Part shown: positions 5,351-25,947 of the stretch, piece after piece
Numbering within the stretch: position 1 is the stretch's first letter
Layout: every line of letters begins with the position of its first letter
IMG/VR virus record: IMGVR_UViG_3300025309_000048
Span: 1-25,947 of that record
Direction: 5' to 3' (one strand)
Length of the DNA stretch: 25,947 bases
Source of the DNA: a virus
The notes under the pieces: model-generated
Database searches by the model: none
Told to the model about the DNA's origin: nothing
The model's input: only the letters and a program-made list of their open reading frames with translations
Program-made: the position numbers and the translations under genes

Positions 5351-6842
5351 GCTTAGTCTCCTTTTCTGTCATTTGATCTACTTGCCATTGTTCATAGGCA
5401 ACCTTTCGAGCCTTGTCAAATGTGTGTGGCCAGCAAGCTTCACACTTGCTTACATCGAGTTGATGAAGTGCCCTGGATGCGGCTACATACAATATGTTGG
5501 TTTCTTCAGTAGTAGGGTTGCCCTGATCGCTGGGAACCTTGAAATCGTTAGCTAGCCTCACTCTAGGCCACTCCAGACCTTTTGCTTTATGGGCCGTAAT
5601 TATGGTTACGTCGGCTTCGTTTGGATCTTCCACAGTTGACTCTAGAATACTTAATAAGCGTTCCCTGCCATAGAGTTCGATTAATTTTAGGATTGGCTTA
5701 ATATCTCCGCCCATTGGAGAATTAGCATACTCGACTAGATCGACAAAGTTCTTAAAAAGGAATAAGTCTGGATGATTTGAATATCCCTGGAGTTTGAGCT
5801 GAATTATAGAGTTGATAAGATATGTAAGTTGTTGAGTACCTCCCAGGATGTGGACAGAAAGATTCTTATCAAGAGCTTCGATTGTTTCTGCAATAATTCC
5901 TTTGTTTGTTCGACAGAGAATGGCATCCACAGCTGGAAGGGGCTCGTAATGGATAGAAGAAACAACATCGTCGTTGCCATGAAATGGCACATAAGCAAAC
6001 TGATATGGATAATAGCCTATGATTATAGTGTTTGCCATATTGGCTATGTTTTCACCGAATCGGAAACTTCTAGTAATGTATAGCTTTGCCAAATTCTCGT
6101 CTTGCAAGGCATTGACTGCACCTCTCCAACTGTAGATTTGCTGGAAACAGTCTCCAACGAAGATCTTTTGACAACTTTGATTCTTGATTACTTGTGCAAT
6201 AACTGGGTTGCTATCTTGATATTCGTCAAAGAAGATAAAGTCTTTGTTAATGATTGGGTTTGTTAATGCCCAGATTTTGAGATAAACATCATGAGTTATT
6301 GGCATATGCTTATTAACATCAGCCATTTCATTAAATACAAGATTGGCATGGTGAACCAAATCTTCACGCATAATATCCAGGTCTGCATCCTGAAGAATTG
6401 TTAATCTTGGCAAATGTTTGTATTGAATAACTTCATCGCTAGAATAACAGTACTTGCGGATCGTATTTAGAATGAGGTATCCTTTGTTGGCTGGACTGTT
6501 ATATAACTGCCATTCTCCAATGTCGAAAGTATCAGCTAGTTGTTTGCCTGTCAGTTTGCTGAGCTTCTTCTTATATTTGTAACCAATTGCACCGTATGCT
6601 AAGGCATGGCCAGTTTTGCACATTATGTTGCTAGAAAACTTGGTTACAGCTTCTTGAGCGAGAAGTTTGTTGAATGAAATTGATAATCCGTATCCTGACA
6701 TTTTGCGCGCCATAGCGAGGAGTAAGAATGTTTTGCCACTGCCAGGAGGTGCTTGGATGGCATAATTGTTTCCATCAAGAATGGTATTGACATGCGACTC
6801 TTGTTCGGTGGTAAGAGTCTTGCCTTTATATTTCATTACCAT
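5322..6842 (-). CDS. UvrD/PcrA-like superfamily 1 DNA helicase, 506 aa
   Basis: ATP-dependent DNA helicase of superfamily 1A. Motifs appear in order: Walker A APPGSGKT (31-38), motif II IFFDEYQD (203-210), motif III GDCFQQIYSWRG (230-241), the SFRF block near 259, motif V AHKAKGLEW (417-425), and motif VI LYVAASRA (451-458) with the arginine finger R457. It is shorter than bacterial UvrD or PcrA (about 700 aa), as is usual for phage versions. GGAG lies eight bases before the ATG. Known relatives unwind DNA during repair, recombination or replication. With the Cas4/RecB-like nuclease and P-loop ATPase downstream it could supply a RecBCD-like function split over separate genes; that is inference. 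Confidence 0.95.
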   Translation of the reverse strand: MVMKYKGKTLTTEQESHVNTILDGNNYAIQAPPGSGKTFLLLAMARKMSGYGLSISFNKLLAQEAVTKFSSNIMCKTGHALAYGAIGYKYKKKLSKLTGKQLADTFDIGEWQLYNSPANKGYLILNTIRKYCYSSDEVIQYKHLPRLTILQDADLDIMREDLVHHANLVFNEMADVNKHMPITHDVYLKIWALTNPIINKDFIFFDEYQDSNPVIAQVIKNQSCQKIFVGDCFQQIYSWRGAVNALQDENLAKLYITRSFRFGENIANMANTIIIGYYPYQFAYVPFHGNDDVVSSIHYEPLPAVDAILCRTNKGIIAETIEALDKNLSVHILGGTQQLTYLINSIIQLKLQGYSNHPDLFLFKNFVDLVEYANSPMGGDIKPILKLIELYGRERLLSILESTVEDPNEADVTIITAHKAKGLEWPRVRLANDFKVPSDQGNPTTEETNILYVAASRALHQLDVSKCEACWPHTFDKARKVAYEQWQVDQMTEKETKHEYKTTEDN

Positions 6843-8206: not shown

Positions 8207-8512
8207 TTATTTACCAAAAGAACACACATTCCAATGGCGTTCTAAATCTTGTTTATACTCTTCAGTGCTTATCCAATTCTTAGCTTCTTCTTCCGTATCA
8301 AATACTCGATTAAGATTGTTTATATATGATTCATTTTCATATTCAATACCAATATCAGACAAGTACCAGGCATAAGTAAAATTTGTTCTGAAATTATGTA
8401 CTGTATCTTTAGGTATCATTATCTCTTCAAATTGTATTGCTGATATTGAACCCACACATACTGCATAATATGTTTTACATATAACAATATTGTTTACGTG
8501 TATTCTTTTCAT
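8207..8512 (-). CDS. Unknown 101-aa protein
   Basis: The start is the ATG at 8510-8512 because a perfect AGGAGG lies six bases upstream, inside the last codons of the 8514-8795 gene, indicating coupling. The N-terminus is beta-rich (MKRIHVNNIVICKTYYAVC). The C-terminal part includes FDTEEEAKNWISTEEY, which resembles the helix found in many small phage proteins with an "EEA--W" motif. No catalytic motif is visible. Confidence 0.75.
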   Translation of the reverse strand: MKRIHVNNIVICKTYYAVCVGSISAIQFEEIMIPKDTVHNFRTNFTYAWYLSDIGIEYENESYINNLNRVFDTEEEAKNWISTEEYKQDLERHWNVCSFGK

Positions 8513-9153: not shown

Positions 9154-9597
9154 TTATCCTATGGTTTGAGTTGCTTTAAAGGTTTGAATAATAGCCTGTT
9201 GTTGTTCTTTACTTAGGGTAGAAAGAATCTGCTGGCAAAGAAGCTCAATGTTGACTGGTTCACTAGTTTTTGGCACTCTTATCTTGGTTGATTCTTTCAT
9301 TTTGATTGCATGTTTATTCATGTTGAGATTGTAATCGATAGCTTGATAAATGCTGGCTACTTCTTTCCATGCTTCATAGGCTTTATGGTATGCAGTCTGA
9401 GTAATTTCTTTTTCTTTGTTCAGCGGAATTAAAGTAGCTTTGGTAGATTCTAGCCTGGTTGCAAGTTCTTTCTGGTAACAGGTCTTGCAAAGCTGTTCGG
9501 ACAAACCAATCTTACGAATGTTATGAATTTCTTTTTCAGTTAAGTTGAAGCCGATTGCTTCATTGAGGGTGTTGCAAATTGGACAGAGTTTTTTCAT
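9154..9597 (-). CDS. Zinc-finger coiled-coil protein, 147 aa
   Basis: The start is the ATG at 9595-9597 (MKKLCPICN) with AAGGAG nine bases upstream. CPIC at residues 5-8 and CKTC near 37-40 form a four-cysteine zinc site around a short helix (LTEKEIHNIRKIGLS). A long helix follows (about 50-95, rich in Lys, Ala, Glu and Tyr), then a helical C-terminus (LCQQILSTLSKEQQQAIIQTF). The layout suggests a small adaptor with a zinc knuckle and dimerising coil. The family is not recognised. It lies 11 bases downstream of the 106-aa gene. Confidence 0.75.
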   Translation of the reverse strand: MKKLCPICNTLNEAIGFNLTEKEIHNIRKIGLSEQLCKTCYQKELATRLESTKATLIPLNKEKEITQTAYHKAYEAWKEVASIYQAIDYNLNMNKHAIKMKESTKIRVPKTSEPVNIELLCQQILSTLSKEQQQAIIQTFKATQTIG

Positions 9598-9608
9598 GTC
9601 TAAGCTCC

Positions 9609-9929
9609 TTAGAATGGACATCCGTCAAAATAAATTCCTGTTTGTTTAGATAAATGTTTTCTAATAGTTTTTATTTCTGTAATAAATTCAATAATTTTAT
9701 CTAATGTATTTGAATAACCTAAACAACAAGCACCCTCAATTTTTTCTTCATCATCTAGTGGTTCAAACTCATATCCGCTATCTGTAACTAGTGAAAAGCT
9801 CCAGAAAGATAATAGTTCTTTTTCTAAGTCTATTTTCTTAACATATGCTGACATTGTATCGTTATCTTCGAACACGTAGGTAAACTCGTGCCCTTGGAAA
9901 GACATAATCTCTTCTGATGTCATTGTCAT
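9609..9929 (-). CDS. Unknown acidic protein, 106 aa, possible paralog of 7523-7873
   Basis: The start ATG overlaps the upstream stop (TAATG), with CGGAG six bases upstream. The protein is acidic and beta-rich in its first 70 residues (GHEFTYVFEDNDTMSAYVKK, then LLSFWSFSLVTDSGYEFE), then helical, ending GIYFDGCPF. The order of segments parallels the 116-aa protein at 7523-7873. Function unknown. Confidence 0.75.
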   Translation of the reverse strand: MTMTSEEIMSFQGHEFTYVFEDNDTMSAYVKKIDLEKELLSFWSFSLVTDSGYEFEPLDDEEKIEGACCLGYSNTLDKIIEFITEIKTIRKHLSKQTGIYFDGCPF

Positions 9930-22243: not shown

Positions 22244-23167
22244 ATGGGTATTATTACTACTAGTAATTTTGCAAAAGATCTGGTGCCTGGGGTCAAGACT
22301 TGGTTCGGGCAGAAATATAAAGAATATCCGATTGAGTATTTGGATATTTTTGAAAAGGGTAACTCTACAAAGGCTTTCGAAGAGGAAGCTGGCGTAACTG
22401 GTTTTGGCCTCGCAGCGGTAAAGACTGAGGGTGGTGGGATTGCGTATGATGAGCAAGAGCAGGGCTTTGTTAGTCGCTATACTCATGTAACGTACGGCCT
22501 CGGGTTTATTATTACTCGGGAAATGTACGAAGATGGTATAGCTGTCACTGTAGCGCTGCGTCGTGCAAATGCGCTGGCCTTTTCTATTCGGCAGACCAAA
22601 GAGATCATTGGGGCAAACATTCTCAATCGGGCGTTTACCTCTACTTATACTATGGGAACTAATTCTGATGGCAAGGAACTTTGTGCTACTGACCATCCGA
22701 ATAAATCCGGCGGAACTTGGCGGAATGAACTTGCTACTGCTGCTGACCTCAGTGAGGCAGCTCTCGAGCAGGCTTGCATTGACATTGCTGCATTCACTAC
22801 TGATCGTGGACTCAAGATTGCGATTATGCCACAGAAGTTGATTATCCCGACTGCTCTTGAGTTTGATGCTATGAGGATTCTCGAATCTATTGGGCAATCC
22901 GGCAGCGCGAATAATGATATCAATGCAATTCGGGCATCAAAGAAGTTTCCCCAAGGCATTGCTGTGAATCATTACCTGACGGATAGTAATGCATGGTTTA
23001 TTAAGACTAACTGTCCTGATGGCCTGAAGTATATGGAGAGGAGGCCAGATGCATTTGGTACCGAGAATGACTTTGATACGGAGAATGCTAAGTTCAAAGC
23101 AACTTTCCGTGGTTCATTTGGTTGGTCGGATCCAAGAGGCATATTTGGTTCCCCTGGTGCTGCATGA
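22244..23167 (+). CDS. Major capsid protein, 307 aa
   Basis: Main shell protein, related by eye to the Mu gpT-like or short HK97-fold capsid proteins. It has the N-terminal block KTWFGQKYKEYPIEYLDIFE, the central strand YGLGFIITREMYED and a long helix (RRANALAFSIRQTKEII). Towards the C-terminus are the beta sheet and loop (KFPQGIAVNHYLTDSNAWFI). Length is normal for the group. AAAGGAG lies seven bases upstream of the ATG. A strong hairpin follows the gene, as often found after highly expressed capsid genes. Confidence 0.9.
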   Translation: MGIITTSNFAKDLVPGVKTWFGQKYKEYPIEYLDIFEKGNSTKAFEEEAGVTGFGLAAVKTEGGGIAYDEQEQGFVSRYTHVTYGLGFIITREMYEDGIAVTVALRRANALAFSIRQTKEIIGANILNRAFTSTYTMGTNSDGKELCATDHPNKSGGTWRNELATAADLSEAALEQACIDIAAFTTDRGLKIAIMPQKLIIPTALEFDAMRILESIGQSGSANNDINAIRASKKFPQGIAVNHYLTDSNAWFIKTNCPDGLKYMERRPDAFGTENDFDTENAKFKATFRGSFGWSDPRGIFGSPGAA

Positions 23168-23250: not shown

Positions 23251-23324
23251 AATTGGGTAAATGAAAGTTAAAATCTTTCAGGCAGTTCTTTGAGATAAGA
23301 AGAATTGTTCCAGTGGAGAAAATT

Positions 23325-24263
23325 ATGGGCGTAACGAACTTTCCAAACGGTATTACATGTGATACTTCCAGAAATAGGTCAATGGCTTCAGGATCTACGG
23401 TTCCTGCATCTGGAATAGCCGGCTATAATCCTGGCTGTACATTTACTAAGACTAATGTAGCTCTTGGGCAGGCAGCTCAATGGATAAATATGGGCACTGC
23501 TGCATCGTGCTTGTTTGTTCCTGTTGGCCCAACTTATGGCTATGGAATCAAGTTAGCTGAAGGGCCAGTTACTTCTGCTGGTGGAGATACGACTGAAGTC
23601 ATTACTCGAAGTGGACTGATTCTTTCTACTGACATAGCTATTGTTAATCATGAAGTTTCTGATGATAATGATCAGATAGTTTCTGCTATAGCTACTGATA
23701 ATACAATTACTATTGTAGGTAGTGCAGATCCTAGTACAGCACATGGATATGATTATGCATTGTTAAGGAATAGATGTATTCCTGAATGGGACATAGTTGC
23801 AGCCGGTACGCATGTTACGGCTGGTGGTGCTGCTGCAGAAGCTATTACAGCTGCTGGAGTTCTTGCAACTGATATGGCTTTTGTTAATTATGGTGCAACA
23901 GACGACACTGATACTATTAGTGATATAGTTTGTACTGCTAATACTATAACGGTTACTTGTTCTGCAGATCCTGCAACTGCACATAGCTTGCATTATGTTG
24001 TTATCAGGCCTCGTGGGACGTTCAAGCCAAGTCATTATATTGCTTATGCTGGAAAGCATACAACAGTTGGTGGAGCAGCAGCTGAGGCAGTAACAATAAC
24101 TGGGGCACTTGCTACAGATATTCCTATCGTCATTTATAATACAACTAACGATACGGATAGCATTCTCAAGGTTGTGATGACTGCTGATACTATGACAGTT
24201 ACATGCTCGGCTGATCCTAGCACTGCACATGCATTTAGTTATATGCTGCTTCGAGCATATTAA
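23325..24263 (+). CDS. Triple-repeat surface protein (putative head fiber or decoration), 312 aa
   Basis: The start is the ATG at 23325 because GGAG lies 6-7 bases upstream; a GTG four codons earlier overlaps that site. After about 75 unique residues (MGVTNFPNGI...), three repeats of about 80 residues follow. Each ends with SADP-TAH and Y--LR: SADPSTAH at 133-140, SADPATAH at 213-220, SADPSTAH at 295-302. Each begins with a GG--AEA-T-L-TD pattern. The repeats are Thr/Ala/Ile/Val-rich beta domains without cysteine clusters or enzyme motifs. Its place after the capsid gene suggests a head fiber or decoration protein. A tail protein is also possible. Confidence 0.7.
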   Translation: MGVTNFPNGITCDTSRNRSMASGSTVPASGIAGYNPGCTFTKTNVALGQAAQWINMGTAASCLFVPVGPTYGYGIKLAEGPVTSAGGDTTEVITRSGLILSTDIAIVNHEVSDDNDQIVSAIATDNTITIVGSADPSTAHGYDYALLRNRCIPEWDIVAAGTHVTAGGAAAEAITAAGVLATDMAFVNYGATDDTDTISDIVCTANTITVTCSADPATAHSLHYVVIRPRGTFKPSHYIAYAGKHTTVGGAAAEAVTITGALATDIPIVIYNTTNDTDSILKVVMTADTMTVTCSADPSTAHAFSYMLLRAY

Positions 24264-24358: not shown

Positions 24359-24643
24359 ATGAGTATGATTATTCCTAAGCAAACTGCAGCTGCTACTGAA
24401 AGGCATTATTTTCCGGCGCATTCGTTGCCAAAGACTGTTGCAGTTGCTGGTATTCTTGTAGCAGAAACGATTGCAGTAAATGTACTTGATGAAGTTGGAG
24501 TAGCTTTGGCTTTGTATGATGAATTTGGAGCAGCAGTAACCATGACTGCAACTTCACCACCATTGAAGATTGATTCACCTATTACCTTACAATTCGTTAA
24601 GGGTGTAACTGCTAACGAAGTCGGTGTTCAGTTGGTGGATTGA
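24359..24643 (+). CDS. Unknown small protein, 94 aa
   Basis: AGGAGA lies seven bases before the ATG. The protein is beta-rich and mostly hydrophobic (TVAVAGILVAETIAVNVLDE, ITLQFVKGVTANEVGVQLVD), with no membrane segment of usual length. Its size and place between the head and tailspike genes suggest a small structural or head-tail connector protein. The family is not recognised. Its stop overlaps the next start (TGATG). Confidence 0.75.
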   Translation: MSMIIPKQTAAATERHYFPAHSLPKTVAVAGILVAETIAVNVLDEVGVALALYDEFGAAVTMTATSPPLKIDSPITLQFVKGVTANEVGVQLVD

Positions 24644-25947
24644 TGACTGTCGCTAAGAGTATATTCAAGTCGATCTTCAAGGGTTATGGTCGCGGATTTG
24701 CTGGTGGTGAAACCACTGGGCCAGACCAAGCTAATCTCTTAGGCTACTATCCTAACAGTCCCATCGTAGACGGCAAACTAATCGCTAGAGCGCCCGTATC
24801 CTCCCACATCACACAGCAAGTAAAGAGCAGCGGCTTCCTCGGCGCGGGCAGCTCCCCCTGCCCCGGCCTGTTGACCACCGACACCATCACCGCCACCGGC
24901 GATGCCCCGACATGCAGTGTGGATGGCACCTTGACATTTCCTGGGCCGGATTGCTGGGATATTGATGTGTTCCGGGATGGTGTACTGTGGGCGAGTTGGA
25001 AGGGTATAAATGTCGGCCAGGCGACTGAGCTGGATGCCTCGGGTAATGGGCATCATTTGGTAGGGCTGGTTGGTACGGCGATCACTGAGAGACTGGATGG
25101 AAGCGGGACGAATTTCTATAATGAGATCGGAGGCAACGTCTATGGATCGTCATTCAGATTACCACGGATTCCATGTCCTGGGGGGTATCGCCTCAACAAC
25201 GGAATAACTATTGATCCAATCAATAGCATCGCTGGGGCCACTGTTACCGGCACAGGTACGTATTCTATCGTTACATCAATAATGGGTGAAAGGGCCGGGT
25301 TGTTATTTACGCAAGGGGATGGATCAGCGTCACGGCAGGTTATATTTACAAAAAGTATAGCCCCGGCAGATTTAAGAAATACTGATGTTATATCACTGTG
25401 GATTTACCTCAGCAACGGAAACCAGGGCATAGGTAACTGCGGGGTTGCTGTAATTTCATTTGGCACTGCTGGCGGGTTTACAGAGAACGCATATAAATCG
25501 TTTGTTGGTGAGTCGGGGTGGAATCTTCTCCAGTTTGCTAAAAGCTCGTTCATCAAGACGGCCGGGTGGGATTGGTCAAGTTTGTCAAGAATCCAGATAC
25601 GTTATGACACGACAAATTCCGCCGGCTATGCGTTTATGTCACAGTTGGTTGTGGGTACAAAATCACGGCCAAAAGTATTGCTTACGTTTGACGACAACGA
25701 CATATCCCAAGTTAATGCGGCTGGTTATGCAAATTCCAAAGGTATAAATACAACCCTGTATGCGATTAAAACGCTCGCCACCGATGAGAATTCTGGCTAC
25801 ATAAAAACAGCAGGACTAAAAACACTGTACGATAGCGGAAATGACATTTGCGGGCATCACGAGACGAACCTAACCACCGTCCCTTTGATTGATGCAACTG
25901 CAAAGATGACAGAGGCAAGGGACTGGCTAGTTGCATCAGGGATGCCG
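24643..25947 (+). CDS. Tailspike-like protein with polysaccharide-deacetylase-like domain (cut by window edge)
   Basis: The frame is open from the ATG at 24643 to the window end (435 codons) and overlaps the previous stop by one base. About residues 1-60 are a short N-terminal module (MTVAKSIFKSIFKGYGRG...). About 90-340 are beta-rich, with Gly/Ser/Thr/Asn-rich segments typical of tail fibers. Near 342 begins a NodB-like pattern: PKVLLTFDD (motif 1, Asp350-Asp351), GINTTLYAI, and CGHHETN at 403-409 in place of motif 2. The usual second zinc His of motif 2 appears to be Leu. The family removes acetyl groups from polysaccharide or peptidoglycan. Here it would act on the host capsule or cell wall during adsorption. 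Part of 24.79-25.08 kb is GC-rich unlike its neighbours, suggesting module exchange. Confidence 0.8.
   Translation, partial: MTVAKSIFKSIFKGYGRGFAGGETTGPDQANLLGYYPNSPIVDGKLIARAPVSSHITQQVKSSGFLGAGSSPCPGLLTTDTITATGDAPTCSVDGTLTFPGPDCWDIDVFRDGVLWASWKGINVGQATELDASGNGHHLVGLVGTAITERLDGSGTNFYNEIGGNVYGSSFRLPRIPCPGGYRLNNGITIDPINSIAGATVTGTGTYSIVTSIMGERAGLLFTQGDGSASRQVIFTKSIAPADLRNTDVISLWIYLSNGNQGIGNCGVAVISFGTAGGFTENAYKSFVGESGWNLLQFAKSSFIKTAGWDWSSLSRIQIRYDTTNSAGYAFMSQLVVGTKSRPKVLLTFDDNDISQVNAAGYANSKGINTTLYAIKTLATDENSGYIKTAGLKTLYDSGNDICGHHETNLTTVPLIDATAKMTEARDWLVASGMP

Follow-up and report, generated by a model that had tools for sequence, protein, structure and literature searches.

In CE4 proteins, as set out in the accessible part of PMC5855634, motif 1 provides the catalytic base and the metal-binding Asp, motif 2 with the sequence H(S/T)xxH the two metal-binding His residues, and motif 5 the acid His. 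Two proteins lacking the second of these His residues have been described, namely CtAxeA of Clostridium thermocellum (PDB 2c71) and BoPDA of Bacteroides ovatus (PDB 4dwe); in the portion of PMC11713874 available, the latter is counted as the second dyad case after CtAxeA. The same portion gives the motif of BoPDA, printed as 213-HDLN-217 with no doubled His, and describes Co2+ held through an Asp-His dyad and four waters; CtAxeA was active on acetylxylan, whereas BoPDA had no activity on the substrates tried. CtAxeA, which prefers Co2+, is a domain of a cellulosomal xylanase with Tyr at the second-His place (HSWSY in our profile alignment of the 2c71 chain). BoPDA is, according to the available text, a lipoprotein of a bacterial capsule locus, in which the NodB domain is inserted into a beta-sandwich carbohydrate-binding domain. 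A viral dyad CE4 protein was not found in the literature searched, of which subscription papers were mostly outside the scope.

Phage attachment proteins that deacetylate are already known. For SGNH receptor-binding proteins, deacetylation of the host polysaccharide or acetyl esterase action has been demonstrated or proposed (PMC9569702 and PMC13123978, each in the part available), and the accessible text of PMC8471582 describes a tailspike deacetylase of the Acinetobacter phage Aristophanes. In the archaeal virus HFTV1 (Haloferax tailed virus 1), furthermore, a deacetylase domain comes after a galactose-binding-like/jelly-roll domain in the capsid-located turret head protein gp31 (PDB 8qpg; PMC12494034), with the canonical His pair (NHGYNH) and a modelled Zn. 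NodB proteins also occur in actinophages, and many of these, including phage relatives of gp10 of Arthrobacter phage Qui, are annotated as minor tail proteins.

The locus described here lies at the end of the window, by which we mean the whole stretch of 25,947 nucleotides analyzed, and its features are collected in Table 1. An open frame leaving the window end on the plus strand, as the earlier note had it, was confirmed, with alternative starts at TTG 24640 or ATG 24643; the product from 24643 begins MTVAKSIFKSIFK. The complete gene was found in another viral contig, IMG/VR 3300025012_000439 (L002; labeled L067 as a whole contig), where it encodes 657 residues from the ATG at L002:5104-7077, corresponding to L067:7845-9821 (window position = L067 position + 16795). 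The match between L002 and the window extends over 6,408 nt with seven mismatches, none of which is within the deacetylase-like gene. As regards the surrounding genes, the best phage match of the terminase is EBPR podovirus 1 (53.1% identity) and that of the head protein is the environmental podovirus MW202785 (56.4%); the 316-aa protein encoded after the head protein gene had no Pfam or PHROGs match.

Table 1. Features of the deacetylase-like locus in window coordinates
Feature	Position	Strand	Basis or remark
Major head protein gene	22244..23167	+	PHROGs, tblastn; upstream of deacetylase-like gene
316-aa protein gene	23313..24263	+	Three similar stretches of ~75 aa (by eye)
orf94, 94-aa protein	24359..24643	+	Conserved beside exchange slot in related phages
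Deacetylase-like protein gene	24640..25947	+	Open frame; truncated by window end
N-terminal module, aa 1-157, anchor MTVAKSIFKSIFKGYGRGFAGGE	24643..25112	+	SIFK anchor in related contigs
Exchanged block, start of (aa 158-578; L067 8318-9581)	25113..25947	+	Replaced in L068, L069, L070 and L073
Jelly-roll domain, aa 183-339	25189..25659	+	AlphaFold2 model; most like CBM family 11/30
NodB-like domain, aa 340 to ~560 (340-435 inside window)	25660..25947	+	Pfam, AlphaFold2 model, structure matches
Motif 1, D350 and D351	25690..25695	+	CE4 roles of base and metal ligand (PMC5855634, available part)
Motif 2, H405 H406 E407 T408 N409	25855..25869	+	H405, first metal His; N409 at place of missing second His

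When compared with the Pfam profile Polysacc_deac_1 (PF01522), the 435-residue part encoded in the window scored only 16.1 bits, under the curated cut-off of 23.1, whereas the whole protein scored 29.1 bits and a 263-residue domain stretch 31.6 bits. The NodB domain is therefore real, and the profile match by which the earlier note proposed to judge its reading is obtained with the complete gene only. A chance occurrence of the motif is ruled out by the Pfam and fold matches. A phmmer search of PDB sequences with the NodB domain gave no match, while profiles did match. Based upon an alignment of 13 proteins (the window protein, 11 from viral contigs, and one bacterial), AlphaFold2 predicted a jelly roll at about 183-339 with block means of pLDDT of 50-87 and a NodB barrel at 340-560 with block means of 64-97 except for 56 and 34 (461-480); the block containing motif 2 (401-410) has a pLDDT of 90. 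The mean over the model is 58.1, and residues 1-182 and 558-657 are unreliable. Over both domains together, the HFTV1 turret structure 8qpg was the top match among solved structures, with a Z of 23.3, an rmsd of 6.3 and 336 residues aligned, and Foldseek likewise ranked it first. NodB-fold structures came next with Z values of ~14-19 over 171-215 residues, so that the barrel fold is recognized in the model. BoPDA, which like the window protein combines a CE4 domain without the second metal His and a beta-sandwich carbohydrate-binding domain, matched with a Z of 14.0, and the jelly roll matched CBM11 with a Z of 13.6. Among viral models, Foldseek placed gp673 of Bacillus phage G first and the esterase of Arthrobacter phage Qui third.

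The match to the HFTV1 turret, in which galactose-binding-like and deacetylase domains are paired as in the window protein, raises the possibility that the protein is a capsid turret or head fiber rather than a tail fiber or tailspike, a reading that is compatible with the others discussed below. The gene indeed follows the head genes, and in relatives it precedes the lysis genes; in one related contig (L081), the corresponding slot lies between head genes and genes for a spanin-like protein, a lysozyme and an SU10-type adaptor. Nonetheless, gene order does not fix the place on the virion, and the minor tail annotation given to many of the phage proteins related to that of Qui speaks for the opposite assignment. 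Weak PHROGs matches are in mutual conflict, with a tail protein matched by the jelly roll at E 0.0048 and a minor head protein by the NodB part at E 0.037, and neither a relative of the N-terminal 187 residues in phage records nor a turret base protein was found. We regard the turret reading as tentative and, given the turret match and the gene order in L081, assign roughly equal likelihood to a head-attached fiber and to a tail part, the tailspike of the earlier note being one candidate only. HFTV1 gp31 also differs from the window protein in that the latter lacks the second metal His and has a further module C-terminal to the deacetylase domain, with which gp31 ends. When bacterial and archaeal genomes were scanned, a single relative was obtained, from Flavobacterium, and a scan with the Arthrobacter pair as a query gave none.

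At the metal site, motif 1 reads T348 F349 D350 D351, which provides both the base and the metal-binding Asp of CE4, and the TFDD at residues 348-351 and the GHHETN at 404-409 noticed earlier are both present. D350, D351, H405, P444 and H516 are invariant across the 13 aligned proteins, with H516 corresponding to motif 5, and FAWPQ resembles the AYPYG form of motifs 3/4 given in the part of PMC10967932 available. Motif 2 departs from H(S/T)xxH and hence from the His-His-Asp triad; it reads H405-H-E-T-N409, in which the second metal His is absent, as the earlier note had stated. That note, however, took the second of the two adjacent His residues as the first ligand and accordingly placed Leu at the second zinc His; this register is off by one. 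H405 aligned with the first metal His in alignments of 8, 26 and 13 rows (window protein included), the distance between motifs 1 and 2 is 55 residues in the window protein and 54 or 55 in 24 of 30 proteins with hand-assigned motif positions, and Asp or Glu stands four residues ahead of the first-metal-His position in all 30. The partner position is thus N409, at which Gln is found in two Arthrobacter phages, and L410 comes after an apparent two-residue deletion in the alignment; Leu as a substituted ligand is ruled out by alignment and spacing. With the second metal His missing and the remaining catalytic residues kept, the sequence is that expected of an Asp-His dyad CE4 protein, and such an altered motif is not new in kind given the precedents of BoPDA and CtAxeA, the latter with Tyr where the window protein has Asn. 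If true, a CE4 type so far represented by two proteins would gain a viral member with this altered site, from which it could be learned whether dyad sites function as enzymes.

Among the 30 proteins, the window protein included, motif 2 takes the form HxxxH in nine, HxxxxxxH in ten and HHxxN/Q in five, while five others are without the second His and one (L007) is without the first; another (L031) has DH instead of DD in motif 1. From these counts, the second His is the loose element of the metal site in the sampled phage proteins. The HHxxN/Q form is carried by the window protein, two proteins from other contigs (L016 and L036) and the close pair of Qui and Lilmac1015; gp10 of Qui, the nearest actinophage protein with HHTAQMTTL, shares the NodB domain at 25-26% identity over a third of the protein. 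In a tree of 29 of the 30 (L012 was left out for its insertions), the HHxxN/Q proteins do not form one clade but require three changes, so that a single origin and several origins are both possible; the placement of the window protein, on a long branch, is unsure. A degenerate DNA pattern, W(D/E)...HHxTN, hit 26 stretches in viral contigs, and only two of these have an in-frame DD upstream, both encoding NodB and belonging to the L036 and L016 contigs (L043 and L056, respectively); the other 24 have none. All five HHxxN/Q proteins combine the doubled His with the Asn/Gln and continue with (L/F/M)TT, a pattern resembling a two-residue deletion, which could be taken to mean that the ligand role of the second His is filled directly by H406 or N409 and no dyad is formed. 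Such a rearranged triad seems quite improbable, however; BoPDA, which also has an Asn nearby, has water at the position of the missing His in the available part of PMC11713874.

Two other variants were observed in this set. The HxxxxxxH spacing, a separate variant of the site, is present in ten of ten proteins that form one starred branch of the tree, namely all nine from Gordonia phages (L022-L026, L029, L030, L032 and L033) and that of Arthrobacter phage Gorpy (L028). The TM7 (Saccharibacteria) phage DolZOral124_53_65 (L027) encodes a NodB protein without the second metal His (HDTSN), and its gene adjoins one annotated as pectate lyase superfamily.

The surroundings of the gene were compared in 21 viral contigs found via orf94, among which L077-L080, L081/L087, L083/L084 and L075/L085 seem to be near copies by ORF lengths. 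With the exception of L086, the ORF that follows orf94 begins with the SIFK anchor in every contig (20 of the 21), and four of the contigs (L068, L069, L070 and L073) have GDSL/SGNH hydrolases between similar breakpoints in place of the jelly roll-NodB block. Of these, L069, L070 and L073 are less closely related than L068. L069 is 95.7% identical to L067 up to 8317, and its match is taken up again at 9582 (94%); L073 is 83% identical up to 8316 and also resumes at 9582 (70%). The part unmatched in these two, L067 8318-9581, encodes residues 158-578 and hence both the jelly roll and the NodB domain. L070 breaks at 8222 (83% before) and resumes at 9594 (78%), and L068 matches at 99.4% over 3,394 nt to 8101, inside the gene, then at 70% to 8316, resuming at 9582 (89%); the L068 head protein is identical to that of the window in 307 of 307 residues. 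Two records, the window and L067, contain the left junction (window 25113), and one contains the right junction (L067 9582) of the NodB form. In L068, L069 and L073 the hydrolase score exceeds the Pfam cut-off, and GDS and DxxHP can be aligned across all four. L070 is below the cut-off (24.7 vs 32.9), and the predicted structure of its SGNH part (mean pLDDT 34.9) was set aside, so that its assignment rests on the sub-threshold Pfam match, PHROG 15881 "tail protein" (E 1.3e-14) and the motifs. The replacing fold, different from NodB, is of the kind found in the SGNH tail fibers G7C gp63.1, Possum gp66 and Klebsiella prophage proteins. That fragments of phage proteins are shuffled is itself already known, as the entry for PMC10684548 indicates, but this locus constitutes a natural experiment, in which close phages, with 99.4% identity next to the slot in one pair, carry different enzymes in a single, sharply bounded block; the influence of the enzyme on host range can thus be addressed directly.

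Since the sister phages replace the NodB block with SGNH domains, the block would be expected to modify a host surface glycan, and the role on a surface polymer suggested earlier gains indirect support from this exchange. Because the catalytic residues are kept as well, we infer that the NodB domain would be active. With a little more confidence than doubt, we consider the protein a modular virion attachment protein that combines a jelly-roll glycan binder with a predicted active Asp-His dyad deacetylase of the CE4-like NodB type. The N-terminal module would fix the protein to the particle, the jelly roll of carbohydrate-binding type would hold a host surface glycan, and the barrel would strip acetyl groups from the same glycan, with its metal held by the Asp-His dyad and completed by water as in CtAxeA and BoPDA, possibly with the help of N409 or H406.

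Alternatively, the barrel might have lost catalysis together with the second metal His and be retained as a glycan-binding surface. BoPDA, which is close in motif, was inactive on every substrate tried in the available part of PMC11713874, and in that of PMC5855634, BA0150 is an example of CE4 proteins that lack the metal triad and are not regarded as functional deacetylases. Further residues are also lost in related phage domains, as in L007 and L031 above, and with five of 30 proteins without the second His and one without the first, decay to a binding domain is possible in this group. The catalytic Asp, the metal Asp, the first metal His and the motif 5 His are, however, all present in the window protein; the recurrence of HHx(T/A)(N/Q) in distant phages disfavors simple decay, and the same slot in sister phages holds hydrolases with the GDS and DxxHP motifs. 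Such a pseudoenzyme is accordingly unlikely in our estimation, and the "binding-only" option of the earlier note seems less likely than a putative active enzyme, with one of the two published dyad CE4 proteins active and no activity observed for the other.

Extending the preferred reading of an active dyad deacetylase to the whole slot, in which unrelated glycan-active folds would interchange between conserved end modules beside near-identical neighbors, gives a proposal that we hold with slightly more doubt than confidence. The slot of L072 has another NodB protein just under the cut-off (22.2 vs 23.1) with FDD and HSYSH, for which no relative was found in phage records, and other slots contain a beta-helix (L071), a GH56-like protein (L083) and CBM5/12 (L081). 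The scanned parts of L074, L075, L076, L077, L082 and L085 had no Pfam match; of the groups L077-L080, L083/L084 and L081/L087, the scans covered L077, L083 and L081, respectively. With such unmatched proteins also occupying the slot, "esterase slot" is too narrow a term. A small ORF of its own encodes the C-terminal module in L068, L069 and L085, and the module is fused in L067, L070, L072, L073 and L074.

Some minor observations were also made on these contigs. The 224-aa slot protein of L083 (4349-5023) matches Pfam Glyco_hydro_56 (hyaluronidase) above the cut-off (E 3.8e-9), which is unexpected in a phage attachment locus, and L086, the sole contig without the anchor, has a gene for an M28-type peptidase nearby (5595-6620). 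Also, the G+C content of the ends of the deacetylase-like gene (0.55 at L067 7800-8199 and 0.59 at 9400-9799) is higher than that of the exchanged block (0.46-0.49) and of the upstream head genes (0.36-0.46).
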